Assembly (NCBI RefSeq): GCF_003751945.1
Contig: NZ_RJKL01000001.1
Coordinates: 248,001-312,000, forward strand
Source of the DNA: Couchioplanes caeruleus
GTDB lineage: Bacteria > Actinomycetota > Actinomycetes > Mycobacteriales > Micromonosporaceae
Reading direction: 5' to 3'
Length of the DNA stretch: 64,000 nucleotides
The position numbers were made by a program, and so were the translations under genes. Under the pieces are notes generated by a model. The model was not told the origin of the DNA and did no database searches. It saw only the letters and a program-made list of their open reading frames with translations. Of this stretch, positions 32,280-51,933 are shown in pieces (within the stretch, counting starts at the first letter, position 1; each line of letters starts with the position of its first letter).

Positions 32280-32618
32280 ATGGGCGAACGCATGCTGCGC
32301 GGCAGCCGACTTGGCGCAGTCAGCTACGAGTCCGACCGCAACACGGAGCTGGCCCCCCGGCAGACCCGCGAGTACCTCTGCGTGAAGGGTCACCAGTTCG
32401 AGGTGCCGTTCGCCGTCGACGCCGAGGTGCCGATCACCTGGGAGTGCAAGTTCGACGGCAGCGTCGCGCGCCTGGTCGACGGCAACGAGCCGGAGCAGAA
32501 GAAGGCGAAGCCGCCGCGCACCCACTGGGACATGCTGCTGGAGCGGCGGTCGATCTCGGAGCTGGAGGACATCCTCAACGAGCGGCTCCAGGAGGTTCGC
32601 ACCCGCCGCGGTCGTTGA
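32280..32618 (+). CDS. rbpA: RNA polymerase-binding protein RbpA
   Basis: A 112-residue RbpA with the expected pieces: N-terminal tail (MLRGSRLGAVSYESDRN), core domain with EYLCVKGHQFEVPFAVDAEVP and TWECKFDG, a basic linker (EQKKAKPPRTHWDMLLERRS) and the C-terminal sigma-interaction helix (ELEDILNERLQEVRTRRG). RbpA binds the principal sigma factor and helps open promoters; it is confined to actinobacteria. ATG 32280 follows GAGGGGAAAAGCCG. Confidence 0.97.
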   Translation: MGERMLRGSRLGAVSYESDRNTELAPRQTREYLCVKGHQFEVPFAVDAEVPITWECKFDGSVARLVDGNEPEQKKAKPPRTHWDMLLERRSISELEDILNERLQEVRTRRGR

Positions 32619-32870: not shown

Positions 32871-33428
32871 TCAGCGGATGATCTCGCCCTCGACGACCTC
32901 ACCGGTGACGACCGGCCCGGGTCGGACCTCCCCGGGCGAGACCACCCCTGTCGCGACCGTCGGGGACTGCGGCGCCGGCTCGCCGACCGGGTCGGCCTGG
33001 TGGACCCGTACCCGCCGGGGCCCGAACAGGTCACCGGCGACCGCCGACGGCACCCGCCGCTCGGTGAAGCGTTCCACCGCGCGCCGGGCCAGGATCCGTC
33101 CCGGCGGCACGATCAGCAGCAGGCCGGCGATGGCCGAGACGAAACCGGGCATCGCCAGCAGCAGCGCGCCGAGCAGACCGACGAGCGAGTTGCTGACCTG
33201 GGGTCCGGGCGGGCGCCTCTGCTCGGCGGCGGCGCGGAACGCCCGCCATCCGCGGATGCCCTCACGGCGCAGCAGCGCCGTCCCGGCGATGCTGGACGCG
33301 GCGATGAGCAGCACCGCCCAGCCCGCGCCCAGGGCGTGCGCCACCGCGGCGAACACGGCGATCTCGGCCACGGCCAGCAGCAACAGCCCCAGCGGAAGTA
33401 GAGCCAGGCCTCGACGCAACTCCGTCAC
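32871..33428 (-). CDS. fxsA: FxsA-family membrane protein
   Basis: A 185-residue protein with an N-terminal FxsA domain: helices near 10-30, 35-55 and 80-105, and the family features EIAVFAAVAHALGAGWAVLLI, IAGTALLRREG and PGFVSAIAGLLLIVPPGR. The C-terminal 60 residues are soluble and Val/Pro-rich. FxsA is best known in E. coli for suppressing F-exclusion of phage T7; the normal function is unclear. GTG 33428 start. Confidence 0.92.
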   Translation of the reverse strand: MTELRRGLALLPLGLLLLAVAEIAVFAAVAHALGAGWAVLLIAASSIAGTALLRREGIRGWRAFRAAAEQRRPPGPQVSNSLVGLLGALLLAMPGFVSAIAGLLLIVPPGRILARRAVERFTERRVPSAVAGDLFGPRRVRVHQADPVGEPAPQSPTVATGVVSPGEVRPGPVVTGEVVEGEIIR

Positions 33429-33596: not shown

Positions 33597-34406
33597 TCAC
33601 GGCCAGGTCGACGGCTGCTTCCGCGTACGCCCGAACTTGTTCAGCAGCGTCTCCTTGCGGGCCGCCGCACCCCACAGCGTGACCCTGAGCAGTTGTTCCT
33701 TGAAGATGTTGCCGCTCATCTTGCTGACGCCGTGTTCGCGCTCGGTGAACGTGATCGGCACCTCCGCCATCCGGAAACCGTGCCGGTAGGTGCGCCAGGC
33801 CAGTTCGACCTGGAACGAGTAGCCCTGCGAGGCGACCGTCGACACGTCGATCGCGTCGAGGACCGGCATGCGGTAGGCGCGGTAGCCGCCGGTGGCGTCC
33901 TTGAACGGCATGCCCAGCGCCATGCGGATGTAGATGTTGCCGCCGCGGGAGAGCAGCAGCCGGTGCAGCGGCCAGTTGTGCACGCTGCCGCCGGGGATGT
34001 AGCGGGTGCCGAGCACCGCGTCGGTGTCGCGCAGGGCGTCGAGCAGCTTCGGCAGTTCCTCGGGGGCGTGCGAGCCGTCGGCGTCCATTTCGACGACCGC
34101 GTCGTAGCCCTTGTCCTTGGCCCAGGCGAATCCGGCGACGTACGCGGCGCCGAGGCCTTCCTTGCCGGCGCGGTGCAGCACGAACACGTGGTCGTCGGCG
34201 GCGGAGATCTCGTCGGCGATGGCGCCGGTGCCGTCGGGTGAGTTGTCGTCGGCGACGAGGATGTCGACCGACGGCACCGCGGTGCGCACCCGCTCGGTGA
34301 TCAACCGCAGGTTGTCGGCCTCGTTGTAGGTGGGGATGACCACGAGGACACGGCCGACCCCTGGGTACCCGTCCGAGCCCGCTGCCATCGGGTTCGCGTC
34401 GCTCAC
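33597..34406 (-). CDS. ppm1: Polyprenol monophosphomannose synthase (GT2)
   Basis: A 269-residue GT2 glycosyltransferase from GTG 34406. VVIPTYNEADNL, DILVADDNSPDGTG and the metal-binding DAD in VVEMDADGSH are visible, as are GTRYIPGG and KDATGGYRAYR. It transfers mannose from GDP-mannose to polyprenol phosphate at the inner membrane face, making the donor for lipoglycan and protein mannosylation. It overlaps lnt by GTGA. In mycobacteria the two activities are fused in one protein; here they are separate but coupled. Confidence 0.93.
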   Translation of the reverse strand: MSDANPMAAGSDGYPGVGRVLVVIPTYNEADNLRLITERVRTAVPSVDILVADDNSPDGTGAIADEISAADDHVFVLHRAGKEGLGAAYVAGFAWAKDKGYDAVVEMDADGSHAPEELPKLLDALRDTDAVLGTRYIPGGSVHNWPLHRLLLSRGGNIYIRMALGMPFKDATGGYRAYRMPVLDAIDVSTVASQGYSFQVELAWRTYRHGFRMAEVPITFTEREHGVSKMSGNIFKEQLLRVTLWGAAARKETLLNKFGRTRKQPSTWP

Positions 34407-36070
34407 CGTTCCTCCGTCTTTCCCTGTGCGTCGATCATGTCGCTGTTCCGGCGGCGTCGCCGGAGTGGTACCGCCCCGGCCAGGACGAGCAAAGTCAGGG
34501 CGACCAGAGCGAGCTCCGGCCACTGTCCCAGACGAGTGGCCAGCGTACGCGGTCCGCCCACCCGCATGTCACGCAGGACCACGGCGTCCACATTGAATCC
34601 CGTGGAGGCGTGTACCCGGCCGTCCGGGCCGGCGAACGCGGACACTCCGACCGTCGATACCATCAGCGCCTCCCGGCCGTGCTCGACAGCGCGTAGCCGC
34701 ACCATCGCAAGCTGCTGACGTGCCTCTGCCTCATTGAAGGTGGCGTTGTTTGTCTGCACCGCGAGGATCTGTGCGCCGCCGGTCACCGTGTCGCGCACGA
34801 TGCCGTCGTAGGCGACCTCGAAGCAGATCACGTCGCCGATCGTCGCCGCCTCGGTGCGGATGACGCCCGGGGTGCTGCCGGCCAGCATGTTCTGCACCAG
34901 ATCGACCTTGGTGGAGACCAGCCGGGCGATCGGGCGCATCGGCATGTACTCGGCGAACGGCACGGGGTGCCGCTTGACGTACAACTGGGCGAGGTCGGGT
35001 CCGGTGACCGGCATCCACAGCACTCCGGCGTTGCGGATCTCCCCCGGCACGTCGCCGCGCAGCACCGTGCCGACGAGGATCGGCACGCCGATCGCGTTCG
35101 CCGCCCCGGCGATCTTCTGCGCGGCGTCCTGGTCGCGCAGCGGGTCGATGTCGCTGGAGTTCTCCGGCCAGATCACCAGCGCCGGCTGCGGCTTGCCGCC
35201 CGCGCGCACCTCGGCGGCGAGCCTCTCGGTGGCGCGTACATGGTTGAGCAGCACCGCGGCGCGCTGGGCGTTGAAGTCGAGCCCGAGACGCGGCACATTG
35301 CCCTGCACGATGGCGACCGTACGGGTCTGCGACGCGGGCGCGGCGGTGGGCACGAACGCGGGGCCGGCGAGCAGCGCCGCGGCGGCCACCGCGAACCCGG
35401 CGGCGCCCAGCCACGCCCGCGGGTCCCTGTCGCCGACCGCGGGCGTGCGGCCGCGCCATGACGACACCGCCTGCCACGCCAGCGCCACCAGGGCACCGCC
35501 GGCGGCGGCGAGCGCGAACGTCACCAGGGGCGCGCCGCCGAGCACGGCCAGCCGCAGCGCCGGCGCATCCTGCGCGGCGAACGCCAACCGCCCCCAGGGG
35601 AACCCGCCGAACGGCGCCCGGTCCCGCAGCGCCTCCTGTGTCACCCACAGCAGCCCGGCCACCCACGGCCAGGCGGCGCGGAACCGGTCGACCAGCGGCG
35701 ACAGCCACGCCGTGGCCAGGCCCAGCAGACCCAGGTATCCGGCCTGCGCGAGCGACAGCAGCATCCACGGCAGCCACCCGGCGGCGATGTGGGTCCAGTC
35801 CAGCAGCGGCACGAACAGCACCAGCCCGGCGAGCATGCCGACGCCGAAGCCGGCCCGCAGCCGCCGGCGGTGCGCCGCCGCGGCCAGCAGCGCCACCGAG
35901 ACCGGCGCCAGCCACCACAGGTCGTACGGTGGGAACGACAGCAGCAGCCCGGCGCCCGCGGCGAGAGCGAGCACGACGGACGCCCACCGCGGCAGCGGCC
36001 GCGGCCCGCGCGGCGGGGCCGTCACGGCGCCGGCCGGCGCGGGTGCGGGCTGAAGCGTCGACAAATCCAC
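34403..36070 (-). CDS. lnt: Apolipoprotein N-acyltransferase
   Basis: A 555-residue membrane enzyme. The N-terminal 230 residues have about seven helices. The nitrilase-like domain holds the catalytic triad: Glu in VIWPENSS (~300), Lys in LYVKRHPVPFAEYMP (~365) and Cys in GDVICFEVAYD (~418). Lnt N-acylates the lipidated cysteine of lipoproteins. GTG 36070 start. It is co-translated with ppm1, its partner in actinobacteria. Confidence 0.95.
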   Translation of the reverse strand: MDLSTLQPAPAPAGAVTAPPRGPRPLPRWASVVLALAAGAGLLLSFPPYDLWWLAPVSVALLAAAAHRRRLRAGFGVGMLAGLVLFVPLLDWTHIAAGWLPWMLLSLAQAGYLGLLGLATAWLSPLVDRFRAAWPWVAGLLWVTQEALRDRAPFGGFPWGRLAFAAQDAPALRLAVLGGAPLVTFALAAAGGALVALAWQAVSSWRGRTPAVGDRDPRAWLGAAGFAVAAAALLAGPAFVPTAAPASQTRTVAIVQGNVPRLGLDFNAQRAAVLLNHVRATERLAAEVRAGGKPQPALVIWPENSSDIDPLRDQDAAQKIAGAANAIGVPILVGTVLRGDVPGEIRNAGVLWMPVTGPDLAQLYVKRHPVPFAEYMPMRPIARLVSTKVDLVQNMLAGSTPGVIRTEAATIGDVICFEVAYDGIVRDTVTGGAQILAVQTNNATFNEAEARQQLAMVRLRAVEHGREALMVSTVGVSAFAGPDGRVHASTGFNVDAVVLRDMRVGGPRTLATRLGQWPELALVALTLLVLAGAVPLRRRRRNSDMIDAQGKTEER

Positions 36071-36589: not shown

Positions 36590-37858
36590 TCACAGGCTGT
36601 TGACCAACGCCGCCGCGACCGCCGGATGATCTTCGGCGAGCATGCCGGCGGCCGCCAGCACGTACCGGGTGTCGACCACCCGCCGGACCTGGCGTGGGGC
36701 CGCCCAGCCGCCGGCGGTGTCGCCGAGAACCGCATCCAGCACGGCCTGCCCGCCGCCGTGGCGCAGCACCCCGCCGGAACCGACGACCAGCCGCACGTCG
36801 CGCAGGTCGCGCCCGCCCGTGCGGGGCAGCCCCGGCCCGGGGGAATGGCCGCGGGCATGCCGGCGCAGCGCGATCATCGCCGCGGTCGACGCCAGCGCCC
36901 GGTCGACCGCCACGTCATACGGCCTTCCACCCGAAATATCCGGCCCGGGCAGTTTCTCGGTGGCCGCGGCGGCGACCACCCCGGCCGCACCCACCCCGAC
37001 GCCCAGGTCACCCTCCACGGTCCGCGACCGCCACAACGTGCCCGCCACATCCCGCTGCGGGCCGTGCTCCAACTCCCCGTCCGGCACCAACGCCGAATAC
37101 ACGTCGGTGGTAGCCCCGCCCACGTCCACCACGAGCACCCCGGCGGCCGTCTCGTCGGCCAGCAGCGACACCCCGGCCAGCACCGCGTCCGGCGTCGCAC
37201 ACCGCACCAACGACGCGAACCGCCTGCCCTTCGACAGCCTCTTCCCGCCGATCACGTGCCGCAGGAACATCTCCCGGATCGCCGCCCGCGCCGGCAACGC
37301 GTCCAACACCCCGATCCGCGGCAGCACATTGCCGGTCACCACCACCGGCACGCCCCGCTCGGTCAACACCCGCGCCGCATCCGGACGAGCGTCGGCGTTG
37401 CCGGCCACCACCACGGGCACCCGCATCCGCGACGTCGCGAGCCGCCCCGCGTTGTGCCGCAGCGTCTCCTCGTCACCGCCGTCGGTCCCACCGACCAGCA
37501 GGATCACGTCCGGTCGCGCCGCACGCAGCGCCGCGATCGCCTTGCCGTCCAGCAGACCCGCCGCCACGTGCACCACCTGCGCGCCCGCCGACAGACCGAC
37601 CCGGTGCCCGGCCTCGGCCGTCACCAACGACTCGTAGCCCACCACGGCCAGCCGCAGTCCACCACCGGCCGACGAGCACACGAACAGCTCGTCGGCGGCG
37701 CCGCCGGCGGCTTCCACCGCCGCGTCCAAGCCGTGCAGCACGTCCGACGTCGACGTGGTGGGCGCCTCCGAGCGGGCCAGCACCCGCCCGGAGCCCAGAT
37801 CCACCCGCAAGGCCTTCGTGTACGTGGACCCGACGTCCACGCAAACGGCCTCGCTCAC
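36590..37858 (-). CDS. MutL/GlmL-type ASKHA protein (B12 mutase-associated)
   Basis: A 422-residue protein from GTG 37858 with an actin-like ATPase fold: phosphate-1 loop [36 protein letters not shown] (typical of glutamate mutase L proteins), and phosphate-2 loop [15 protein letters not shown]. In glutamate mutase operons MutL is thought to protect or reactivate the B12 enzyme. Here it is the last gene after kal, kamE and kamD, so it probably serves lysine 5,6-aminomutase. The start overlaps the kal stop by GTGA. Nothing to do with DNA-repair MutL. Confidence 0.9.
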
Positions 37859-38220
37859 GCCTTCGGCGGCACGACCACCGTGCCCGTCGCCGTCACCGCG
37901 ACGATCGGCTCGTCCAACACGGCCGCCGACGAACCGCCCGAGCCCCGGCACACCACGGTCGACGAGAACTCGATCTTGCGCGAGCGGGTGCCCATCTTCA
38001 CCACCGTCGCCGCCACCTCGAGCACGTCACCGGCCTGCACCGGCGCCTTGAACTGCACGTCGTCGTACGACGCGAACAGACCCTCGTCGCCGTCGAGCTG
38101 GATGCACACCTCGGTCGCCACGTCGCCGAACAGGCCCAGAGAGTACGCCCCGTCGACCAGATTGCCCGCGTAGTGCGCGTGCGCGTACGGCACGTAACGA
38201 CGATGCTTCACAGTGATCAT
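37855..38220 (-). CDS. kal: 3-aminobutyryl-CoA ammonia-lyase (hotdog fold)
   Basis: A 121-residue single-hotdog protein. The N-terminus ([21 protein letters not shown]) and [27 protein letters not shown] match the Kal type, which eliminates ammonia from L-3-aminobutyryl-CoA to give crotonyl-CoA. It sits between the mutL-type gene and kamE with four-base overlaps on both sides. Without this context it could only be called a hotdog thioesterase-like protein; the operon makes Kal likely. Confidence 0.85.
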
Positions 38221-38951
38221 GCGGAACTCCCGGTCAGCGCGTGAACAAGGTACGAGGCGACCTCCCGGGGCGTCGTACCCCGGGAGAAGATCCGGTCGAC
38301 ACCGAGCTCCTCGGTCATCAACTCGTCGAAGCGCGGCCCGCCGACGATCAGCAGCGGCCGCTTGCCCGCCGGCAGCGCCTCCCGGAACGCCGCCGACATC
38401 TGCCGCGTGTTCAGCAGATGCGCGTCGCGCTGCGTCACCACCTGCGACACCAGCACGGCGTCGGCCTTGCACGCCTTCGCCGTCTCCACCAGGTCCGGCA
38501 CCGACACCTGCGCGCCCATGTTCGTCACCGACATCTCCCGGTACGACTCCAGGCCCTTCTCCCCCGCGATGCCCTTGAGGTTGAGGATCGCGTCGATGCC
38601 GACCGTGTGCGCATCCGTGCCGATGCAGGCGCCCACCACATTCATCCGGCGCCGCATCCGGCGCTTGATGACCGCGTTGACCTCCTTGGCCGACAAGAGC
38701 GGGAAGTCGCGCTCCACGACCTGCACCTTCTCGGTGTCGACGAGGTGGTTCACCTTGCCGTACACGACGAAGAAGGTGAAGCCCTCGCCCATCGGCTTGG
38801 CGTGCACCAGCATCGCCGGGTCCATGCCCATCTTGTTCGCCAACTGGATCGCGGCGCCCTCGGCCCGCTTGTCGTGCACCAGCGGCAGGGTGAACGACAC
38901 CTGCACCATGCCGTCACCGGTCGTGTCCCCGTAGGGCCGGACGATGCTCAT
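38217..38951 (-). CDS. kamE: Lysine 5,6-aminomutase beta subunit (B12-binding)
   Basis: A 244-residue subunit. The dimerisation part starts [20 protein letters not shown]. The cobalamin-binding Rossmann domain contains [19 protein letters not shown], with the DxHxxG base-off motif (Asp-Ala-His). [16 protein letters not shown] and [14 protein letters not shown] are also typical. With KamD it moves the 6-amino group of beta-lysine to carbon 5 using adenosylcobalamin and PLP. ATGA overlap with kamD. Confidence 0.94.
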
Positions 38952-40501
38952 GCCTCCAGGGCCTCCGTCACCGGGTTGAAGTAGTCGGCGTCGTGCTTCG
39001 CGACCCCGTCGAGGCCCTTGCCCCGGTCCGCGGGCCGCTTCATGATGCCGAACGTGCCGTCCGCGATCGCGTTGAGCATGCCGTCGTCGACGACCCGCTC
39101 CAGCAGCTCCACCGCCTCGCCCAGCACCGAGTGCGCCCGCTGCTGGATGAAACCGCCCGGCGCCGGCACGAAGTCCTCGTGCAGGTTGCCGGCGCCGTCG
39201 AGCACGTACCGCACGTTCTGCAGCGCGATGTCGCGGTCGGACAGCCACGGCGTCACCACCGCCTCGGTCATCATCCCCACCAGCAGGATCCCCTGACCGG
39301 TCAGCGCGCCCACCAGGTTGAAGAAGCCGTCCAGCAGATTGCCGCGGAACACGTCGCCGGTCATGTGCTTGGTCGGCGGCATCCACTTCAGCGGCGCATC
39401 CGGGAACAGCTCCCGTGCCAGCAGCGCGTGCGCCAGCTCCAGCCGGAACGACTCCGGCAGCTCCGGGTTGATCTCGAACGCGTGCCCGAGACCCAGTTGC
39501 CAGTCCTCCAGGCCCGCCTCGTGCGCGAAGAACTCGTTCAGAAGCTGCGACACCGTCACCGTGTGCGCCGCCTCGACCGCGTCCGCCGTGGTCAGGTAGT
39601 TGTCCTCACCGGTGTTGATGATGATGCCCGCCCGGGCGTGCACCTGCCGCGAGAACCGCTGGTCCACGAACGTCCGGATCGGGTTGATGTCACGGAACAG
39701 AATCCCGTACATCGAGTCGTTGAGCATCATGTCGAGCCGCTCCAGGCCCGCCAGCGCCGCGATCTCCGGCATGCACAGACCCGACGCGTAGTTCGTCAAC
39801 CGCACGTAGCGGCCCAGCTCCTTCGACGACTCGTCCAGCGCCGCCCGCATCAGCCGGAAGTTCTCCTGCGTCGCGTACGTACCCGCGAAACCCTCCCGGG
39901 TCGCACCCTCCGGCACGTAGTCGAGCAGCGACTGCCCCGTCGACCGGATCACCGCGATCACGTCCGCGCCGGCCCGCGCCGCCGCCTGCGCCTGCGGAAT
40001 GTCCTCGTAGATGTCACCGGTCGCCACGATCAGATAGATCCACGGCCGCCGCGGCGGATCCCCGTACCGTTTGATCAGCCGGTCCCGCTCCACCCGGCGC
40101 CGGTCCACCACCTTCAGACCCGCGTTGGCCGCGCGCCGCGCGGCCCGCTTGGCCGCGGTCACCTCGGCCTTCTTCTCCGGTACGGCGAAGCGCACCGCAC
40201 CCGCCGCCGCCTTCTGCGCCAGCACCGTCACGTCGTCGAGGCCCTCGGCGGCGAGCGCATGGAACACCGGCACCGCCACCCCGTGCCCCAGGCCCACGTC
40301 CGCGCGGACCGCGTCCACGAGCCGGTTCACCCACGGGATGCCGTCGGAGTCCGCGCCCCGCACACCCGCCAGCCGCAGCACGGCCCGCTCCACCGACACG
40401 GTCGTGTGCGACCGCGCCAGATCCACGACCGGCTGTCCCGCCCGCGCGGCGAGCTCCCGTGCCCGCCGCACCACCTCCGGGTCCAGACCCAGCTTCCGCA
40501 C
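38948..40501 (-). CDS. kamD: Lysine 5,6-aminomutase alpha subunit
   Basis: A 517-residue TIM-barrel subunit that binds PLP and substrate. Characteristic segments are IYLIVATGDIYEDIPQAQAA, ADVIAVIRSTGQSLLDYVPEG, YVRLTNYASGLCMPEIA, MLNDSMYGILFRDINPIRT and APLKWMPPTKHMTGDVFRG. GTG 40501 is behind GAGGAG at 5 bases, starting 2 bases after the amidohydrolase stop. Length matches clostridial KamD. Presence in an apparently aerobic actinomycete is the notable point. Confidence 0.95.
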   Translation of the reverse strand: MRKLGLDPEVVRRARELAARAGQPVVDLARSHTTVSVERAVLRLAGVRGADSDGIPWVNRLVDAVRADVGLGHGVAVPVFHALAAEGLDDVTVLAQKAAAGAVRFAVPEKKAEVTAAKRAARRAANAGLKVVDRRRVERDRLIKRYGDPPRRPWIYLIVATGDIYEDIPQAQAAARAGADVIAVIRSTGQSLLDYVPEGATREGFAGTYATQENFRLMRAALDESSKELGRYVRLTNYASGLCMPEIAALAGLERLDMMLNDSMYGILFRDINPIRTFVDQRFSRQVHARAGIIINTGEDNYLTTADAVEAAHTVTVSQLLNEFFAHEAGLEDWQLGLGHAFEINPELPESFRLELAHALLARELFPDAPLKWMPPTKHMTGDVFRGNLLDGFFNLVGALTGQGILLVGMMTEAVVTPWLSDRDIALQNVRYVLDGAGNLHEDFVPAPGGFIQQRAHSVLGEAVELLERVVDDGMLNAIADGTFGIMKRPADRGKGLDGVAKHDADYFNPVTEALEA

Positions 40502-40503
40502 CG

Positions 40504-42045
40504 TCACTCCTCGTAGATCGTCTCGCCGGACAACACCGTCCGGCGGCACACCGGCCGCGCCGGTACGTCACCGTCGGGCCCCGGCAGCAGCGCCGGCAAG
40601 CCCCCGTCCAGACCCGCGGGCGTGTCCCACACCGCGAAGGTCGCCTGCGCGCCCGGCGCCAGCTCCCCCGCGTCGTCGATCCCCACGGCCCGCCAGCCAC
40701 CGCGCGTCGACGCCGCGAACGCCGCCCGCACACCCATCCGGAACACCGGATTGCGCGGCGCCGCCGCCGCGACCACCGCCGCCCACGGATCCAGCGGCGT
40801 CACCGGCGCGTCCGAGCCGAACGCCAGCGCCACCCCCGTCGCGTGCATCGCCCCGATCGGATTCGACGCCAGCGCCCGGTCCACACCCAGCCGCTGCGCG
40901 TACATCCGGTCCGGGCCGCCCCACAGCGCGTCGAACACCGGCTGCACGCTGGCCACCACCCCGAACTCGACCATCCGGGCGATCATCGCCCGGTCCGCCA
41001 GCTCCACGTGCTCGATCCGGTGCCGGCCCGCGCGCACCCGCTCCACGCCGACCGCCTGCGCCGCGATGGCGAACCCGTCCAGCACGCTCGCGATCGCCGC
41101 GTCCCCGATCGCGTGGAAGCCACCCTGCACACCCAGCTCGATGCACTCGAGCAGATGCGCCCCGGCCTGCTCCGCCGACACGAACGCCTCGCCGCACCCG
41201 CCGCCGTCGGCGTAGGGCGTGCCCACCGACGCCGTGCGCGAACCCAGCGCCCCGTCCGCATACAGGTCGCCGGCCGCACCCACCGCACCCAGATCCTTCG
41301 CGCGCTGCGCACCGCCCAGCTCACCCCAGTAGCCCAGGACCCGAGGCAAGCCCTGGCCCGACAACGCCAGCACCGAGGCCAGATCCTGCTCGCTGGACGT
41401 GCCCGGGCCCGCGCACTCGTGCACCGACGCCACCCCGCGCGACGCCGCCAGCCGCAACGCCGAGCGCTGCGCCGCCTCGCGCTGCGCCGGCGTCAACGAC
41501 CCCAGCGCCACCGCGCGCACCGCATGATGGGCGTGCTCGCGCAGCCACCCCGACGCGTCGTACCCGCCGGTCGCCTCGATGCCCGGGCACGCCGCGAGCA
41601 GCGCCCGCGACGCCAGCGCCGAATGCACCGACGCCTGCGACAGGTACACCCGCCGCCCACCGGCGACCCGGCCCAACTCGTCCGCGTCCGGCGGCGTCTG
41701 ATCCGCCCACGTCGACTCGTCCCACCCGTGCCCGTGCACGACCGCGTCCGGCGCCCGCGTCTGCGCGAACGCCGCCACCGCGGCCAGCAACTGCCCCGCC
41801 GAGCGCACCCCCGACAGATCCAGGCCGTCGGCCGCCAGCCCCGTGTCCGTGGCGTGCACATGCGCGTCCACGAACGCCGGCGTCACCAGGGCACCACCCA
41901 GATCCACCACCGCGTCGGCCGTCGGCGCGTCCGCGGACGCACCCATCCAGGCGATCCGGCCGTCACGGACCAGCATCGCCGCGGCACACGGAGCCGCCGC
42001 CGAGAAGAACCGGCCATTGCGGTAGAGCGTCGAGGGGAGAGTCAT
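40504..42045 (-). CDS. Amidohydrolase (YtcJ-like) inside the lysine aminomutase operon
   Basis: A 513-residue metal-dependent amidohydrolase. The metal-binding DAHVHAT is at ~60, HGHGWDES at ~105, GDLYADGALGSRTA mid-protein, HAIGDAAI (His ligand) at ~315, HRIEHVEL (His) at ~345 and the final Asp in AFGSDAPV at ~415. YtcJ-like enzymes hydrolyse C-N bonds of varied amides. Lying 5 bases from kdd and 2 from kamD, it is surely co-expressed with them. Its substrate could be an N-acylated lysine derivative or a cyclic amide formed from pathway intermediates; that is inference. Confidence 0.9.
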   Translation of the reverse strand: MTLPSTLYRNGRFFSAAAPCAAAMLVRDGRIAWMGASADAPTADAVVDLGGALVTPAFVDAHVHATDTGLAADGLDLSGVRSAGQLLAAVAAFAQTRAPDAVVHGHGWDESTWADQTPPDADELGRVAGGRRVYLSQASVHSALASRALLAACPGIEATGGYDASGWLREHAHHAVRAVALGSLTPAQREAAQRSALRLAASRGVASVHECAGPGTSSEQDLASVLALSGQGLPRVLGYWGELGGAQRAKDLGAVGAAGDLYADGALGSRTASVGTPYADGGGCGEAFVSAEQAGAHLLECIELGVQGGFHAIGDAAIASVLDGFAIAAQAVGVERVRAGRHRIEHVELADRAMIARMVEFGVVASVQPVFDALWGGPDRMYAQRLGVDRALASNPIGAMHATGVALAFGSDAPVTPLDPWAAVVAAAAPRNPVFRMGVRAAFAASTRGGWRAVGIDDAGELAPGAQATFAVWDTPAGLDGGLPALLPGPDGDVPARPVCRRTVLSGETIYEE

Positions 42046-42050
42046 GAACG

Positions 42051-43109
42051 TCAGTGTGCCGCGATCCGCGCCTCGAACAACGCGCGCACCGCGGGAGTAC
42101 GCCGCAGAACATCCAGGGCGAACTCCGCGTGCCCCGGCAGATAGCCGTTACCGACCAGCATCGTCACGTCCGCCGCCAGGCCCTCCGCGCCCAGCGCCGC
42201 CGCCGAGAAGCTCGTCGCCATCGAGAAGAAGATGACCGTGCCGCCGTGACCCGTCGACAGGATCGCGCCGTGCTCACAGCCCGGCACGTCCACGCAGACG
42301 ACCGTCACCGTCGCCGGCGCACCCAGCGCGTCCGCCACCGCGGTCGACACCGCCACCGGATCCCGGGCGTCGGCGATCGCCACGTGATCGGCCAGGCCCG
42401 CCGACGTCAGCGCGTCCCGCTCGGCCTCCGAGACCACCACCCCCACCGTACGGGCACCCGCCAGCCGCGCCGCCGTCAACGCCAGCGACCCGCTCTTACC
42501 GGCCCCGCCCAGCACCGCCACCGTCACCGGCTCGCGGTCACCGGCGATCCCGGCCGCACCCACGTACGCCTTCACCACCCGGTCCGTCAGCGCCGGCGCA
42601 CCGCACACGTCGAACACCGCCAGGGCCAGCTCCGGCGCCAGATCCTGCGGCAGCACCGCCACCACCGAGCGCCCGAACAGGATCGCGTGCCCCGACGCCG
42701 GCACCTGCTCGCCGAGGCCGTCCCAGCCGGCCAGCTCGTCGTCGATCACCAGCGGGGTCAGCGTCAGCGACACCAGCGTCGCCACACGGTCGCCCACCTT
42801 CACCGGCAGCGGCGACTCCGGGCCCACCTCGTCCACGACCCCGATCAGCATGCCGCCCGAGCCCGTCACCGGGTTATGCATCTTGCCGCGGGTCCGCACG
42901 ATCTCCAGGACCTCGGCACGCACGGCGGCGCCGTCGCCGTCATGTTTGCCGGCGAGCTGCCGATAGCTGGCGGCGTCCAGGTTCAGCCGCTCCACCCGGA
43001 TCCGCACCTCGTCCGGCCCGATCTCCGGCCGCGCGTCCAACCGCCACGCCGCCTGCGGCAGCACACCCGCCGGCTCGAGCACCCGGGACAGACCCACAGC
43101 GAACGACAT
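42051..43109 (-). CDS. kdd: L-erythro-3,5-diaminohexanoate dehydrogenase
   Basis: A 352-residue MDR-like dehydrogenase with an NAD-binding segment VAVLGGAGKSGSLALTAARLAGA (~190) and conserved Kdd features NLDAASYRQLAG, RGKMHNPVTGSGGMLIG and VVCVDVPGCEHGAILST. It oxidises 3,5-diaminohexanoate to 3-keto-5-aminohexanoate. ATG 43109 is preferred over ATG 43118 because GAGG is then 9 bases upstream. First gene of the minus-strand operon, divergent from kamA. Confidence 0.92.
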   Translation of the reverse strand: MSFAVGLSRVLEPAGVLPQAAWRLDARPEIGPDEVRIRVERLNLDAASYRQLAGKHDGDGAAVRAEVLEIVRTRGKMHNPVTGSGGMLIGVVDEVGPESPLPVKVGDRVATLVSLTLTPLVIDDELAGWDGLGEQVPASGHAILFGRSVVAVLPQDLAPELALAVFDVCGAPALTDRVVKAYVGAAGIAGDREPVTVAVLGGAGKSGSLALTAARLAGARTVGVVVSEAERDALTSAGLADHVAIADARDPVAVSTAVADALGAPATVTVVCVDVPGCEHGAILSTGHGGTVIFFSMATSFSAAALGAEGLAADVTMLVGNGYLPGHAEFALDVLRRTPAVRALFEARIAAH

Positions 43110-43242
43110 ACTCACCATCCTCACGAGAAACAAGGCGCTGCAACGCTGCTACACCGTAAATCCTCCGGACCTACGGTTTCTAGACCGAAGATTCTCCAGT
43201 ATCGTGATCGCTGACTACCCCCGACCCCCCAGGAGGCCACCG
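43110..43242. promoter_or_regulatory. Divergent kdd / kamA promoter region with nested dyads
   Basis: Between the start codons lie ACCGTA (43153-43158) with TACGGT (43172-43177), and overlapping it CGGT-TTCTAG-ACCG (43174-43187). The pair of dyads sharing CGGT suggests binding of a regulator that controls both directions. The binding protein is unknown; an Lrp-type factor would fit the metabolism. Confidence 0.5.
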
Positions 43243-44616
43243 GTGACTCAGCCGGCCACCGCTCCGGAAACTCCCGCCGGCCAGCCGTACGAGTACCGGC
43301 GCCGGCCCCTCGTCGAGCCCGACTGGACCCGGTTCCCCGGCTGGCGCGACATCACCGCCGCCCAGTGGGAATCCGCCCAGTGGCAGCGCGTCAACTGCGT
43401 CAAGAACGTCAAGCAGCTCCGCAACGTCATGGGCGACCTGCTCGACGAGCGCTTCTACACCGACCTCGAGACCGACATGGCGCGCCTCGCCACCATGTCG
43501 ATGCTCATCCCGCCGCAGATGCTCAACACCATGGTGCCCGACCGCACCCCCGACACGGAGTCGTTCTACGCAGACCCGGTCCGGCGCTACATGCTCCCGG
43601 TCGCCACCGACCGCCGCCTCGACTGGCCGTCGCACCCGCACGCCAGCCGCGACAGCCTCCACGAGCACGACATGTGGGTCGCCGAAGGCCTCACCCACCG
43701 CTACCCGACCAAGGTCCTCGCCGAGCTGCTCAGCACCTGCCCGCAGTACTGCGGCCACTGCACCCGCATGGACCTCGTCGGCAACAGCACCCCCGTCGTC
43801 GACAAGCTCAAGCTCACCCTCAAGCCCGTCGACCGCTACGACGCCCACCTCGCCTACCTCAAGTCCCACCCCGGCGTGCGCGACGTGGTCGTCTCCGGCG
43901 GCGACGTCGCCAACGTCCCCTGGAAGCAGCTCGAGACCTACCTCATGGGCCTGCTCTCCGTGCCCACCGTGCGCGACATCCGCCTCGCCACCAAGGCGCT
44001 CATGGGCCTGCCCCAGCACTGGATCCAGCCCGACGTCGTCGAGGGCCTGCACCGCGTCGCCATCACCGCCGAACGGCGCGGCGTCAACCTCGCGGTGCAC
44101 ACCCACGTCAACCACGTCAACTCGCTGACGCCGCTGGTCGCCCGCGCCGCCCGTACGCTCATCGAGGTCGGCGTCCGCGACGTCCGCAACCAGGGCGTGC
44201 TCATGCGCGGCGTCAACGCCACCAGCACCGACCTGCTCGACCTCTGCTTCGGGCTCCAGGGCGAAGCGGGCATCCTGCCGTACTACTTCTACATGTGCGA
44301 CATGATCCCCAACGCCGAGCACTGGCGCGTCCCGGTCTGGCACGCCCAGCAGCTCCAGCACGACATCATGGGCTACCTGCCGGGATACGCCACCCCGCGC
44401 ATCGTCTGCGACGTGCCGTTCGTCGGCAAGCGCTGGGTGCACATGGTCTCCGAGTACGACCGCGAGAACGGCATCTCGTACTGGAGCAAGAACTACCGCA
44501 CGTCCATCGAGCACGACGACGCCGAGGCGTTGAACAAGCTCTACGCGTACTACGACCCGATCGACACGCTGCCCGAGGCGGGCCAGGAATGGTGGCGCAA
44601 GCAGAGCGCCGAGTGA
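43243..44616 (+). CDS. kamA: Lysine 2,3-aminomutase-like radical SAM enzyme
   Basis: A 457-residue protein. GTG 43243 is set by AGGAGG 6 bases upstream, rather than GTG 43204. GLTHRYPTKVLAELLSTCPQYCGHCTRM carries the CxxxCxxC 4Fe-4S/SAM motif in CPQYCGHC (~165-175). VVVSGGDVANVPWKQLE is the SAM-binding GGD, and DVPFVGKRWVHMVSEY near residue 395 replaces the usual PGGGGK loop but keeps a Lys for PLP. It would turn L-lysine into L-beta-lysine. The sequence is divergent from clostridial KamA, so another amino-acid substrate cannot be excluded. Confidence 0.88.
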   Translation: MTQPATAPETPAGQPYEYRRRPLVEPDWTRFPGWRDITAAQWESAQWQRVNCVKNVKQLRNVMGDLLDERFYTDLETDMARLATMSMLIPPQMLNTMVPDRTPDTESFYADPVRRYMLPVATDRRLDWPSHPHASRDSLHEHDMWVAEGLTHRYPTKVLAELLSTCPQYCGHCTRMDLVGNSTPVVDKLKLTLKPVDRYDAHLAYLKSHPGVRDVVVSGGDVANVPWKQLETYLMGLLSVPTVRDIRLATKALMGLPQHWIQPDVVEGLHRVAITAERRGVNLAVHTHVNHVNSLTPLVARAARTLIEVGVRDVRNQGVLMRGVNATSTDLLDLCFGLQGEAGILPYYFYMCDMIPNAEHWRVPVWHAQQLQHDIMGYLPGYATPRIVCDVPFVGKRWVHMVSEYDRENGISYWSKNYRTSIEHDDAEALNKLYAYYDPIDTLPEAGQEWWRKQSAE

Positions 44617-44686: not shown

Positions 44687-45961
44687 GTGCGCTGTCCATG
44701 AACGTTCACCGGGTTGGTGACACGCCGTGTGGCGTCCGGGCGGTATGGGGCTGGGGGGATCACTCTCGACGGCGGTGATGTTCGCCGTTGAGAGTGGGTG
44801 AGCGGGTTGGCCGAGCCGGTTCGGGCACGGCGGTTGACGCAGGATGAGGGCCGCAGACTGCAGCAACTGGTGCGGCGCGGTAAGCACGACTCGGTTCGGG
44901 TGCGACGGGCGCTGATCATCATGGCGTCGGCTTCGGGGACGCCGGTGGTGTCGATCGCTCGTCTCGTGGCGGCGCACGAGGACACCGTCCGCGACGTGAT
45001 CCATCTGTTCAATGAGATGGGTCTTCGCGCGTTGGACCCTCAGTGGGCGGGAGGCCGTCCCCGCCGGATCAATGACGACGATGAGGCGTTCATCGTCGCG
45101 ACGGCCACCACGCGCCCGAGCAAACTCGGACGCCCGTTCACCCGCTGGAGCCTGCGGAAACTCGCCGACTATCTTGCCCGAGACGCTGATCGGCGGGTGG
45201 TCTGCGGCCGGGAACGGCTGCGGCAGTTGCTGCGCGCCAACGACGTCAGCTGGCAGCGCACGAGGACGTGGAAGGAATCCACGGATCCGGACTTCGACAC
45301 GAAACTCGATCGCATTGAGCGGGTCACCACACAGTTCCCGCAGCGGTGTTTCGCGTTCGACCAGTTCGGGCCGTTGTCGATCCGCCCGCACCATGGCACC
45401 ACCTGGCAGAAGCGCAAGCGTCCGGACCGGCTACCGGCGACCTACACGCGCACGCACGGGATCCGCTACTTCCACGGCTGTTACAGCTTCGCTGACGATC
45501 AGCTCTGGGGTGTGGTTCGCCGCCGCAAGGGCGCAGACCACACCCTGTCCGCGCTCAAATCGATCCGGGCCGCGCGGCCGGACGGGGCACCGATCTACGT
45601 CATCATGGACAACTTGTCGGCGAACAAGACCCCGACCATCCGAGATTGGGCTGCCCGGAACAAGGTCGAGCTCTGCCTGACCCCCACCAGCACGTCCTGG
45701 GCGAACCCGATCGAGGCGCAGTTCGGGCCGCTCCGAACGTTCACGATGGCCGGTTCGAACCACCCGAACCACACCGTCCAGACCCGCGAGCTGCAGAGGT
45801 ATCTGCGCTGGCGCAACGCCAACGCCCGCCACCCCGACGTCCTTGCCGCTCAACGCCGTGAACGAGCCCGCGTCCGCAGCGAACGCCAACAGCGTTGGGG
45901 CCGACCCCGCACCAAAGCCGCCTGACCGCTCAGACCCGGTGAACGTTCATGGACAGCGCAC
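44687..45961 (+). mobile_element. IS630-family insertion sequence, apparently intact
   Basis: Perfect terminal inverted repeats: 44687-44714 begins GTGCGCTGTCCATGAACGTT, mirrored at 45934-45961. Both ends are flanked by TA (44685-44686 and 45962-45963), the target duplication of IS630/Tc1-type elements. The single transposase gene is full length, so the element may be mobile. It has inserted in the stop codon of the csbD gene, which survives. Confidence 0.92.
44798..45925 (+). CDS. IS630-family transposase
   Basis: A 375-residue protein. The N-terminal helix-turn-helix pair runs to about residue 100 (IARLVAAHEDTVRDVIHLFNEMGLRAL). The DDE catalytic core follows: CFAFDQFGPLSI (first Asp, ~188), VIMDNLSANKT (second Asp, ~271) and TPTSTSWANPIEAQFGPLRT (Glu, ~306). 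GTG 44798 start. No frameshift, in contrast to the other insertion sequences in this window. Confidence 0.94.
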   Translation: MSGLAEPVRARRLTQDEGRRLQQLVRRGKHDSVRVRRALIIMASASGTPVVSIARLVAAHEDTVRDVIHLFNEMGLRALDPQWAGGRPRRINDDDEAFIVATATTRPSKLGRPFTRWSLRKLADYLARDADRRVVCGRERLRQLLRANDVSWQRTRTWKESTDPDFDTKLDRIERVTTQFPQRCFAFDQFGPLSIRPHHGTTWQKRKRPDRLPATYTRTHGIRYFHGCYSFADDQLWGVVRRRKGADHTLSALKSIRAARPDGAPIYVIMDNLSANKTPTIRDWAARNKVELCLTPTSTSWANPIEAQFGPLRTFTMAGSNHPNHTVQTRELQRYLRWRNANARHPDVLAAQRRERARVRSERQQRWGRPRTKAA

Positions 45962-46152
45962 TAGCTGAAGGCGTCCCGCACGTCCTTGCCGGCGTCCTTC
46001 ACGTGCTCACCCGCCTGCTTCGCGTGCGCGGCCGTCTCCTGCGCCTGGCCCTCGGCGATGAGCCGCTCGTTGTCCGTCGCGTCGCCGATGCCCTGCTTCG
46101 CCTTACCGGTCAGCTCTTCGGCCTTGTTCTTGACCTTGTCAGTGAAGCTCAT
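45961..46152 (-). CDS. CsbD-family stress protein
   Basis: A 63-residue, highly hydrophilic helical protein (TDKVKNKAEELTGKAKQGIGDATDNERLIAEGQAQ in sense) ending KDVRDAFS. CsbD-like proteins are general-stress proteins in bacteria, with unknown molecular role. ATG 46152 follows GAGAGG. Its stop codon TAG spans the right junction of the IS630 element: T and A come from the target duplication and G from the element. A SigB-like promoter lies upstream. Confidence 0.9.
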   Translation of the reverse strand: MSFTDKVKNKAEELTGKAKQGIGDATDNERLIAEGQAQETAAHAKQAGEHVKDAGKDVRDAFS

Positions 46153-46200
46153 CGTCAACCTCTCACCGCTCGAACTTGTTTGTTCTTGCTGGTGAGTTCA

Positions 46201-46226
46201 GTGCCCGAAGGGCTCCTGTGTGAAAC
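46201..46226 (-). promoter_or_regulatory. SigB-like promoter of csbD
   Basis: On the minus strand GTTT (46226-46223), 16 bases, then GGGCAC (46206-46201), close to the actinobacterial stress-sigma pattern GTTT-N14-16-GGGTAC/T. It lies about 50 bases before the csbD start. Confidence 0.5.
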
Positions 46227-46256
46227 CCGGTGTAACCGGGCGCACGCCGCGTAAAG

Positions 46257-46267
46257 CATCCTAGGAT
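46257..46267. repeat. CATCCTAGGAT motif, copy 1
   Basis: Part of a 23-base block (CGCGTAAAGCATCCTAGGAT core) that recurs at 50095-50117 with two differences. Lies between csbD and the small gene at 46290. Confidence 0.6.
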
Positions 46268-46289
46268 CCTGAGATATAGGGAAGGGCCG

Positions 46290-46457
46290 TCAGACGGCCC
46301 AGCCTTGGCGGACGTGCCAGTCGTTGGCGTCGCCGTTCATCGGGTCATGGGCGGCCTGTACCAGCGGCTGCACCGGGACCATCTCCTCGGGGGTGATCCG
46401 CGGCGGCAGGTGCCGAAAGTCCTGCTCAGGCTTGATTTCCTCGGCGTGCTTCTCCAT
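46290..46457 (-). CDS. Small hypothetical protein (55 aa)
   Basis: A short frame from ATG 46457 to TGA 46290: MEKHAEEIKPEQDFRHLPPR, then ITPEEMVPVQPLVQAAHDPM and a tail ending HVRQGWAV. Codon use is native, with G/C at nearly all third positions. The hairpin GGGCCGT-CAG-ACGGCCC (46284-46300) covers the stop codon, as expected for a gene end. No family recognised. Confidence 0.65.
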   Translation of the reverse strand: MEKHAEEIKPEQDFRHLPPRITPEEMVPVQPLVQAAHDPMNGDANDWHVRQGWAV

Positions 46458-46483
46458 GTGCCCAGGCTAGACACCGGGTGCCA

Positions 46484-50249: not shown

Positions 50250-50740
50250 TCAGTATCGGCGATCCGCGGCGGGCGGTTCTCGTACGGGGTACTCAGCACC
50301 ACCGTCGTGCGCGTCGTGACGTTGGCCGCCGTACGGATCTCCTGCAGGAGCCGTTCCAGGTCGGCCGGGCTCGCCACCCGGACCAACAGCAGGTAGAAAT
50401 CCTCCCCCGCCACCGAGTAGCAGGAGTCGATCTCCGCGAGGTGGCGCAGCCGCTCCGGCGCGTCGTCCGGCTGCGACGGGTCGAACGGGCGGATCGCCAC
50501 GAAGGCGGTCAGCGGCAGGTCCAGGGCCTCGTACGAGACCACGGCCGTGTACCCGTTGATGACACCCCGCTGCTCGAGGCGGCGCACGCGCTGGTGCACG
50601 GCCGACACGCTCAGCCCGACCCGCTCGGCGAGCACGGTGTAGGACAGCCGGCCGTCCGCGGTGAGGGCGCCCACGATCGCCCGGTCGATCTCTTCCACCG
50701 CGTCAAGATACCGGTCGACGCTGAGCCGCCCCGCACCCAT
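50246..50740 (-). CDS. Lrp/AsnC-family regulator
   Basis: A 164-residue protein from ATG 50740. HTH at residues ~15-65 (EEIDRAIVGALTADGRLSYTVLAERVGLSVSAVHQRVRRLE in sense), then the RAM ligand-binding domain (AFVAIRPFDPSQ, IDSCYSVAGEDFYLLLVRV). Such proteins sense amino acids as octamers or dimers. It lies 50 bases downstream of an acyl-CoA dehydrogenase gene on the same strand, suggesting control of branched-chain or other amino-acid catabolism. Confidence 0.92.
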   Translation of the reverse strand: MGAGRLSVDRYLDAVEEIDRAIVGALTADGRLSYTVLAERVGLSVSAVHQRVRRLEQRGVINGYTAVVSYEALDLPLTAFVAIRPFDPSQPDDAPERLRHLAEIDSCYSVAGEDFYLLLVRVASPADLERLLQEIRTAANVTTRTTVVLSTPYENRPPRIADTD

Positions 50741-50790
50741 TCCGGCATACCGCTCCCGGCCTGCGGAAAGTCCATACGAGACGGGCCGGC

Positions 50791-51933
50791 TCAGTCGCGG
50801 GTCAGCGAGCGGGAGATCACCAGCCGCTGGATCTGGTTGGTCCCCTCCACGATCTGCAGCACCTTCGCCTCGCGGAACCACCGCTCGGCCGGGTGGTCGT
50901 TCACGTAACCCGATCCGCCCAGCACCTGCACCGCGTCCGTCGTCACCTTCATCGCGACGTCCGTCGCGAAGAGCTTCGCCTTGGCGGCCTCCGTCGAGAA
51001 CGGCCGGCCGGCGTCCTTGAGCCGCGCCGCCTCCAGCATCAGCGCCCGGGCCGCCGAGACCTGGGTGGCCATGTCGGCCAGCATGAAGCCCAGACCCTGG
51101 AAGGAGGCGATCGGCTTGCCGAACTGGGTGCGCTCCTTCGCGTACGCGGCCGCGTAGTCGACGGCCGCCTGGGCGAGTCCCACCGCGCACGCCGCGATGC
51201 CGAGGCGGCCCGCGTCCAGCGCCTGCATGGCGATCCGGAATCCGCCGCCTTCCTCGCCCACGAGGCGGTCGGCCGGGATGCGGGCACCGTCGAGCACGAT
51301 CTGGGCCGGCGCGGACGAGCGCAGGCCCATCAGCCGCTCCGGCGCCTGCGGCAGCAGTCCCCCGGTGGCCGCGTCGGCCAGCAGGCAGGAGATGCCGCCC
51401 GGGCCGGGGCCGCCGGTGCGGCAGAAGATGTTGTAGAAGTCCGCGCGCCCGCCGTGGGTGATCCACGCCTTGGTGCCGGTCACCACGTACTCGTCGACCT
51501 CGCGCACCGCACGGGTGGCCAGGGCCGCCGCGTCGCTGCCGCCCTGCGGCTCGGACAGGCAGTACGCCCCCAGCAACTCGCCGCCGAGCATCTCCGGCAG
51601 GGACTTGCGCTGCCGCTCGGTGCCGAACGCGGCCACCGGGAAGCACGACAGGGTGTGCACGCTGACGGCCTCGGCGATGGCCACCCACGACGACGCGAGG
51701 ATCTCCAGGACCTGGAGGTACACCTCGTAGGGCTGGCCCCCGCCGCCATCGGCCTCCGGGTAGGGCAGGCCCAGCAGGCCGGCCCGGCCGATGGTCCGCA
51801 GAATGTCGCGGGGGAACTCACCCTTCTGCTCGTACCGGGCGACTTGCGGGGCGAGCTCGCCCTGCGCGATCTCCCGGGTGAGCCCCAGCAACTCGTATGC
51901 CTCTTCGGTGGGAAGAATCCGCTCGACCGTCAC
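50791..51933 (-). CDS. Acyl-CoA dehydrogenase
   Basis: A 380-residue flavoenzyme with all standard parts: LLGAYCLSEPQGGSDAAAL (FAD contact), VVTGTKAWITHGGRAD, GRLGIAACAVGLAQAA, RTQFGKPIASFQGLGFMLADM and the catalytic-Glu segment QIVEGTNQIQR near the C-terminus. It oxidises an acyl-CoA to the 2-enoyl-CoA, passing electrons to ETF. The chain length preference cannot be read. Adjacent Lrp regulator points to amino-acid degradation. Confidence 0.94.
   Translation of the reverse strand: MTVERILPTEEAYELLGLTREIAQGELAPQVARYEQKGEFPRDILRTIGRAGLLGLPYPEADGGGGQPYEVYLQVLEILASSWVAIAEAVSVHTLSCFPVAAFGTERQRKSLPEMLGGELLGAYCLSEPQGGSDAAALATRAVREVDEYVVTGTKAWITHGGRADFYNIFCRTGGPGPGGISCLLADAATGGLLPQAPERLMGLRSSAPAQIVLDGARIPADRLVGEEGGGFRIAMQALDAGRLGIAACAVGLAQAAVDYAAAYAKERTQFGKPIASFQGLGFMLADMATQVSAARALMLEAARLKDAGRPFSTEAAKAKLFATDVAMKVTTDAVQVLGGSGYVNDHPAERWFREAKVLQIVEGTNQIQRLVISRSLTRD

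Follow-up and report, generated by a model that had tools for sequence, protein, structure and literature searches.

Why does an actinomycete carry the lysine aminomutase operon of fermenting anaerobes, with an amidohydrolase in its middle and one pathway enzyme missing? The question is raised by a stretch of Couchioplanes caeruleus DNA that covers bases 248,001–312,000 of the larger contig in a genome of 8.43 Mb; the whole stretch of 64,000 nucleotides is referred to as the window, and positions are counted from its first base. In Clostridium, Fusobacterium, Cloacamonas and Intestinimonas, lysine is fermented through KamA, KamDE, Kdd, the 3-keto-5-aminohexanoate cleavage enzyme Kce, and Kal. 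Many actinomycetes are aerobes and are usually grown in air. A preliminary description of the window assigned its genes to this route, noted that no Kce-like gene was visible and offered two explanations, a Kce encoded elsewhere or a diversion of 3-keto-5-aminohexanoate through the amidohydrolase. The analysis presented here leads to another answer. The locus probably combines the aminomutase route of lysine breakdown with a lysine-releasing enzyme of its own, an amidohydrolase predicted to free lysine from N-epsilon-acyl-lysine and so to feed KamA.

The enzyme that seemed to be missing is very probably encoded far from the operon. A tblastn search of the window with the genome's own Kce protein found no kce, which upholds the preliminary description on this point, and its alternative of a Kce encoded elsewhere also appears correct: the genome contains one BKACE (Kce-type) gene, 4.8 Mb from the operon, scoring 309 bits and thus above the Pfam cut-off (a control of this genome search was positive in one of 14 named genomes). 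The best PDB match of its product is the bona fide Kce 2y7d (E 3e-57; next best E 2e-41). Every enzyme of the route very probably has its gene in this genome as well, and solved structures from the fermentation pathway are matched by Kdd, KamDE and Kce.

Kce and KamD also occur together in other genomes. Within the window's family, KamD is present in 142 of 150 genomes (in G063 only at E 1e-3) and a BKACE gene in 145. The five family genomes without BKACE are G059 and G063, which are 77–82% complete, and G093, G105 and G121, which are 99–100% complete and also without KamD. KamD is missing from eight: G059, G093, G105 and G121, likewise without BKACE; G002, G033 and G113, with a strong BKACE match; and G030, with a weak one (E 1e-26). 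Across 296 genomes of the class, at E cut-offs of 1e-60 for KamD and 1e-40 for Kce, 60 have both, three KamD only, six Kce only and 227 neither; Kce is thus found in 60 of the 63 KamD-positive genomes. The KamD-only genomes are G172 (80% complete), G298 (68% complete) and G408 (complete), and three of the six Kce-only matches have 33–51% identity. The genomic Kce-type gene and this co-occurrence make it very probable that the lysine pathway of the window genome is complete and that the amidohydrolase is no stand-in for Kce.

The diversion proposed in the preliminary description, in which the amidohydrolase replaces Kce by acting on cyclised 3-keto-5-aminohexanoate, agrees with the fact that kce has no match in the window, nor in 79 of 80 named loci over the stretches fetched (the best 80 of 588 matches to a KamD profile in GTDB, some on short contigs). 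However, Kce is present in 31 of the 33 KamD-positive genomes with a detected amidohydrolase (E 1e-80) and in 29 of the 30 without one, or in 27 of 28 when G230 and G420, which have a 32–36% identical amidohydrolase between kdd and kamD, are left out. Moreover, G093, G105 and G121 lack KamD and BKACE and still retain the amidohydrolase adjoining kamA, and its assayed relatives hydrolyse N-epsilon-acetyl-lysine. The diversion can hardly be upheld. A kce gene is not unlinked everywhere: it directly adjoins kamA in four fetched loci from the family to which the window belongs, L040 and L050 (genus g12), L042 (G013) and L044 (G014), and likewise in Glycomyces artemisiae (L163). The preliminary description had held that the arrangement would lose its novelty if a kce gene with identical regulation lay just outside the operon or if related operons lacked the amidohydrolase. 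The outcome is mixed, since kce adjoins kamA in these loci and the amidohydrolase is missing in 22 of 75 operons.

The remaining enzymes are encoded in one compact block, as described before, and all seven genes and their junctions were confirmed. On the minus strand lie kdd (3,5-diaminohexanoate dehydrogenase, 42051..43109), the amidohydrolase gene (40504..42045), kamD (38948..40507), kamE (38217..38951), kal (3-aminobutyryl-CoA ammonia lyase, 37855..38220) and a gene for a GlmL/MutL-type ATPase, a putative mutase reactivase (36590..37858). The gene kamA (lysine 2,3-aminomutase, 43243..44616, plus strand) is divergent, and its longest open reading frame starts at 43204. The starts of kamA (~43243), kdd, kamD, kamE, kal and mutL (the upper coordinates of the last five) were refined by eye from the translations; they leave a 5-base gap between kdd and the amidohydrolase gene and 4-base overlaps at the other four junctions.

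The assignment to the lysine aminomutase route stands, as the enzymes fit curated models and solved structures. Kdd reaches 261 bits with the NCBIfam model NF052381 (cut-off 200) and matches PDB entry 7dl3 at E 1e-58. KamD scores 703 bits with NF052384 (cut-off 600) and matches 8t0v at E 5e-166 and also 1xrs, while KamE scores 341 bits with NF052385 (cut-off 280), and its TDAHTVG motif and next Lys-Gly align with 9q1a. KamDE is identified as lysine 5,6-aminomutase, with both subunits exceeding equivalog cut-offs and aligning with 8t0v and 9q1a. Kal passes NF052388 (180 bits, cut-off 160) and matches a related lyase, the beta-alanyl-CoA:ammonia lyase 4mtu, at E 8e-18. The GlmL/MutL-type protein scores 398 bits with Pfam MutL (PF13941) and is barely over the cut-off of the GlmL family TIGR01319 (213 against 204 bits). 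KamA, whose sequence is that of a divergent family member, contains the CxxxCxxC motif, and its sole PDB match is lysine 2,3-aminomutase 2a5h (E 3e-41). For the CoA-transferase that would act on acetoacetate, the candidates in the window genome are two adjacent CoA_trans matches, a strong and a weak one, at C1:752948-754377.

What, then, does the amidohydrolase do? With 244 bits, it is the only one of the genome's 14 Pfam Amidohydro_3 matches that spans the model (the next has 61 bits), and its best PDB match is 3icj (E 5e-27). Related enzymes have been assayed in Streptomyces, where, according to the available parts of two reports, the epsilon-lysine acylases (EC 3.5.1.17) are YtcJ-like amidohydrolases that are about 76–94% identical to one another and are treated as biocatalysts (PMC11511702, PMC10699109). 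One of them, SgELA, has a published mass of 56.9 kDa (PMC11511702, in the portion available). In the accessible part of the report, SgELA hydrolysed N-epsilon-acetyl-lysine and did not act on any N-alpha-acyl amino acid that was tried; its H177 is described there as forming the oxyanion hole (PMC10699109). When 44 amidohydrolases were aligned, H76, H78 and H365 were invariant and H330 and D431 were kept in 43, and the window protein retains all five of these metal ligands. An FDALWGG...MY stretch is common to the window and Streptomyces-type proteins, with small changes, and is not found in the structural relative 3icj.

The assayed type can be placed on the genome by its published primers. 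The SgELA reverse primer was searched in 392 genomes of genus g66, which we take to be Streptomyces from the primer match and the size of the genus, and was found exactly in eight; such a match denotes the SgELA type and not necessarily the assayed strain. In six of these eight, the forward primer is also exact and marks the start of a 548-residue frame of 56.80–56.87 kDa, whose product has His76, His78, His177, His330, His365 and Asp431 at the published numbers. The C-terminus is the one coded by the paper's codon-optimised primer in five of the six, and the forward primer has one mismatch in G188 and seven in G799. In all eight genomes, the gene has an AsnC gene on one side and a glycosyltransferase gene on the other. 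The window protein is 54% identical to the SgELA-type protein. Because the SgELA primers fall at the same locus, because of this identity and because no other Amidohydro_3 match of the genome spans the model, the window amidohydrolase is, judged by position and sequence, the counterpart and orthologue of the Streptomyces epsilon-lysine acylases. It shares with SmELA, ScELA, SamELA and SgELA the YtcJ-like family, the five metal ligands and the AsnC - acylase - glycosyltransferase - rbpA surroundings. Unlike them, it lies inside a lysine-degradation operon, which the Streptomyces-type loci lack, and its acylase activity is a prediction.

A route can be proposed on this basis. The amidohydrolase would convert N-epsilon-acyl-lysine, mainly acetyl-lysine, to L-lysine, as the orthology with the assayed enzymes suggests. 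KamA would turn lysine into beta-lysine, KamDE would convert beta-lysine to 3,5-diaminohexanoate, and Kdd would oxidise the latter to 3-keto-5-aminohexanoate. With Kce and with the removal of ammonia by Kal, which would give crotonyl-CoA, the route as a whole would turn lysine into acetoacetate and crotonyl-CoA. A probable reactivase of the B12 enzyme KamDE is the GlmL/MutL-type protein, and the AsnC/Lrp protein encoded near kamA is a probable regulator of the locus.

The gene set is not a chance assembly, as the same order, kamA | kdd - amidohydrolase - kamD - kamE - kal - (MutL) - lnt - GT2 - fxsA | rbpA, occurs in most of the 80 named loci. Among these, lnt is found in 65, the GT2 glycosyltransferase gene in 62 and rbpA in 58; MutL is present in 22, those of Micromonosporaceae and Glycomyces. 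Close named relatives (again among the best 80 of the 588 KamD profile matches) belong to Pseudosporangium, Couchioplanes, Actinoplanes and other Micromonosporaceae. In many loci, including the window, the kamA side is bordered by a gene for an AsnC/Lrp protein, to which one for an acyl-CoA dehydrogenase is often added. Of the 75 loci in which both kdd and kamD are visible, 53, the window being one of them, hold the amidohydrolase in the slot between these genes, with median distances between matched ends of 21 and 28 bases on its two sides. Outside the class, eight of the ten KamD-bearing genomes were fetched (G497 and G607 were left out). One family, f47, has a 34–35% identical amidohydrolase between kdd and kamD in six of six loci; its kamA points in the same direction as kdd, and lnt lies downstream in four of the six and is not found within about 7.7 kb in the other two. 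The usual order was not seen in two further loci outside the class, L182 and L183. The arrangement is considered old because its order is shared among actinomycete families and its core extends to one family outside the class.

The position of the amidohydrolase between kdd and kamD could also point to a role inside the pathway, namely a repair step on another amide, for example N-acetyl-beta-lysine or a lactam formed from 3,5-diaminohexanoate or 3-keto-5-aminohexanoate. The retention of the protein with kamA in G093, G105 and G121 would fit a beta-lysine derivative as substrate. Nevertheless, 22 of the 75 operons do without the amidohydrolase, and among the substrates in the available part of the report SgELA was active only on N-epsilon-acetyl-lysine (PMC10699109). 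Such a repair function is regarded as improbable.

A further explanation, unlikely but the strongest of the competitors, is that the amidohydrolase gene has long been a neighbour in the lnt - ppm-like - fxsA - rbpA block and serves a housekeeping role of its own, its place in the operon being inherited gene order and not a sign of shared function. The KamD-independent occurrence of the amidohydrolase speaks for it, and so do loci without the operon. In other genera, the amidohydrolase gene of such loci lies by lnt, the glycosyltransferase gene or rbpA in eight of nine cases (the exception is L058), and in Streptomyces-type loci it is flanked by the AsnC and glycosyltransferase genes in 21 of 21. 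The protein is also kept in G093, G105 and G121, from which KamD and Kce are gone. In these three genomes (L035, L036 and L037), kamA and the amidohydrolase gene remain together next to lnt; no kdd, kamDE or kal was found in the stretch and no KamD or BKACE genome-wide. G030 (L038) resembles them, with a contig that stops inside kamA. Against a mere passenger stand the tight placement between kdd and kamD in 53 of 75 loci and in all six f47 loci, the activity of the assayed relatives on acyl-lysine, which would be a fitting substrate, and the fact that the amidohydrolase still adjoins kamA in G093, G105 and G121. When the amidohydrolase (E 1e-80) and KamD are both present in a genome of the class, they are no more than 5 kb apart in 29 of 33 genomes; in three they are on different contigs, and in G408 they are separate (hand count). 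The passenger role keeps some probability because the lysine genes and the amidohydrolase have each been lost without the other.

The proposal that the locus couples acyl-lysine hydrolysis to lysine breakdown has to be weighed against several observations that count against it. Within the class, the amidohydrolase occurs in 33 of 63 genomes with KamD and in 110 of 233 without (p = 0.48), so the two are independent at the cut-offs used, and the idea of an amidohydrolase belonging to a lysine-only module is weakened by this. The 22 slots without it indicate that neither needs the other; 15 of them are labelled Nocardioides, four Phycicoccus, Humibacillus or Knoellia, and the rest Glycomyces and two unplaced metagenome-assembled genomes, and two of the 22 hold other genes. 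In four genomes of the window's own family, G011 and G128 (genus g12), G013 and G014, the acylase gene is at lnt and the lysine genes are elsewhere. The identity of 54% is well under the 76–94% among the assayed enzymes. At the H177 column the window has Asp, and His is missing in 17 of 20 Streptomyces-type proteins as well, in a poorly aligned region. Two pathway enzymes score low on their specific models. KamA, with 158 bits on TIGR03820 (AblA; cut-off 525), is far under the equivalog cut-off, and the lysine presumed to bind pyridoxal 5'-phosphate, like the roles of the other KamA residues an assumption of ours, is one residue off in an ungapped alignment. The top NCBIfam model of the genome's Kce, Lys_ferment_KCE, gives 276 bits, under its cut-off of 382; the kce product adjoining kamA in L040 scores similarly low (266 bits).

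A quick tree of 64 amidohydrolases gives some idea of the history. It took 64 of 82 loci; in the other 18, the amidohydrolase had no match, or its match was short or contained a stop. The operon label must change ten times on this tree, and at least six changes are forced by starred branches. The Streptomyces-type proteins stand beside three operon-borne ones, with a support of only 82. The arrangement is probably ancestral in actinomycetes, with Streptomyces and several other lineages having lost the aminomutase genes from it and kept the acylase. It is conceivable, with a probability put at slightly less than even, that an ancient actinobacterial system for the salvage of acyl-lysine survives in part in the Streptomyces epsilon-lysine acylases. 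In this view, acetyl-lysine, such as that released when acetylated proteins are degraded, would lose its acyl group and be burned via the radical and B12-dependent pathway that is known otherwise as an anaerobic fermentation, and the tie of the locus to lnt, the ppm-like gene and rbpA would predate the divergence of the actinomycete families.

Neither the enzymes nor the pathway is new; the feed-in step from acyl-lysine would be. Compared with the fermentation pathway of anaerobes, the genes are here found in actinomycetes, kce is unlinked in most of the loci examined, the operon includes an acylase orthologue and the locus lies at lnt - rbpA. A precedent for modified lysine as the entry is Intestinimonas AF211, which, according to the available part of the report, converts fructoselysine to lysine by a kinase and a deglycase and then uses the same aminomutase pathway (PMC4697335). 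There, a sugar adduct is the substrate, whereas the hydrolase of the window would cleave acyl-lysine. A literature search with most subscription journals outside its reach recovered no recognised report of the operon in actinomycetes, of its tie to lnt - rbpA or of a link between the acylase and lysine catabolism. If the proposal is true, the industrial acylase gains a physiological role and acyl-lysine becomes an added entry point to a classic lysine pathway. In addition, an oxygen-sensitive pathway would be common in bacteria that are usually grown in air, given the KamD counts in the family (142/150) and the class (63/296).

The operon of the window continues to the genes that accompany it in other genomes. 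The conserved downstream neighbour is lnt (apolipoprotein N-acyltransferase, 34403..36070, minus strand), with 218 bits on TIGR00546 (cut-off 133) and a Pfam LNT_N match. It is followed on the same strand by the GT2 glycosyltransferase gene (33597..34523; Pfam Glycos_transf_2, no NCBIfam equivalog reached), called ppm-like here, and by fxsA (32871..33428; Pfam FxsA, 97 bits), and then by rbpA on the plus strand (32280..32618; Pfam RbpA, 150 bits). On the kamA side, the conserved AsnC/Lrp-family regulator gene (50252..50746, minus strand; Pfam AsnC domains) encodes a protein 90% identical to the one whose gene adjoins kamA in L035. The adjoining acyl-CoA dehydrogenase gene (50791..51933, minus strand) was assigned by Pfam; its best NCBIfam model, acryloyl-CoA reductase, gives 344 bits, below the cut-off of 640. 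Between kamA and these usual neighbours, positions 44798-50019 of the window hold an IS630-type transposase gene (44798..45925, plus strand; NF033545, 157 bits, cut-off 100) and two ABC-transporter genes.

The kamA-kdd spacer contains, at 43150-43200, two similar blocks, CCGTAAATCCTCC and CCGAAGATTCTCC, and related sequence was recognised by eye in other Micromonosporaceae. The blocks are a candidate operator. An operator common to this spacer and the kce promoter was considered and rejected, since AT-rich blocks were seen by eye in several Micromonosporaceae spacers and none upstream of kce.

Several other loci show variations. Genes for phosphoketolase, phosphate acetyltransferase and acetate kinase, not all in each case, adjoin kdd within the lysine locus in L133:715-5266, L160:6477-9673, L143:5801-7858 and L090:16031-18493, which come from two Phycicoccus, one Knoellia and one further genome; this suggests a supply of acetyl-CoA or acetyl-phosphate, or an energy yield. 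A defence-type pair, an AAA ATPase and a RloB-like gene, is inserted between kamE and kal at L047:11457-13394. A contig labelled as a Spirochaetaceae metagenome-assembled genome (L138) carries an actinomycete-like lysine operon with a 79% identical KamD, and its label is probably a binning error. A second kamDE pair, 43–46% identical to the window's, is found in L045 (G048 C1:4901000-4918000), where the KamD model score (764 bits) exceeds the window's 703 and no kdd, kamA or kal was found in the stretch. Lastly, in the Streptomyces-type genome G408, no kal was seen in the L084 stretch (C1:599000-618000), and a genome-wide search at E 1e-40 gave no kce. Its separate kamA-kdd-kamD-kamE cluster lies there among genes for an AMP-ligase, a luciferase-like monooxygenase and GNAT acetyltransferases, which looks like a biosynthetic use of the first half of the pathway.

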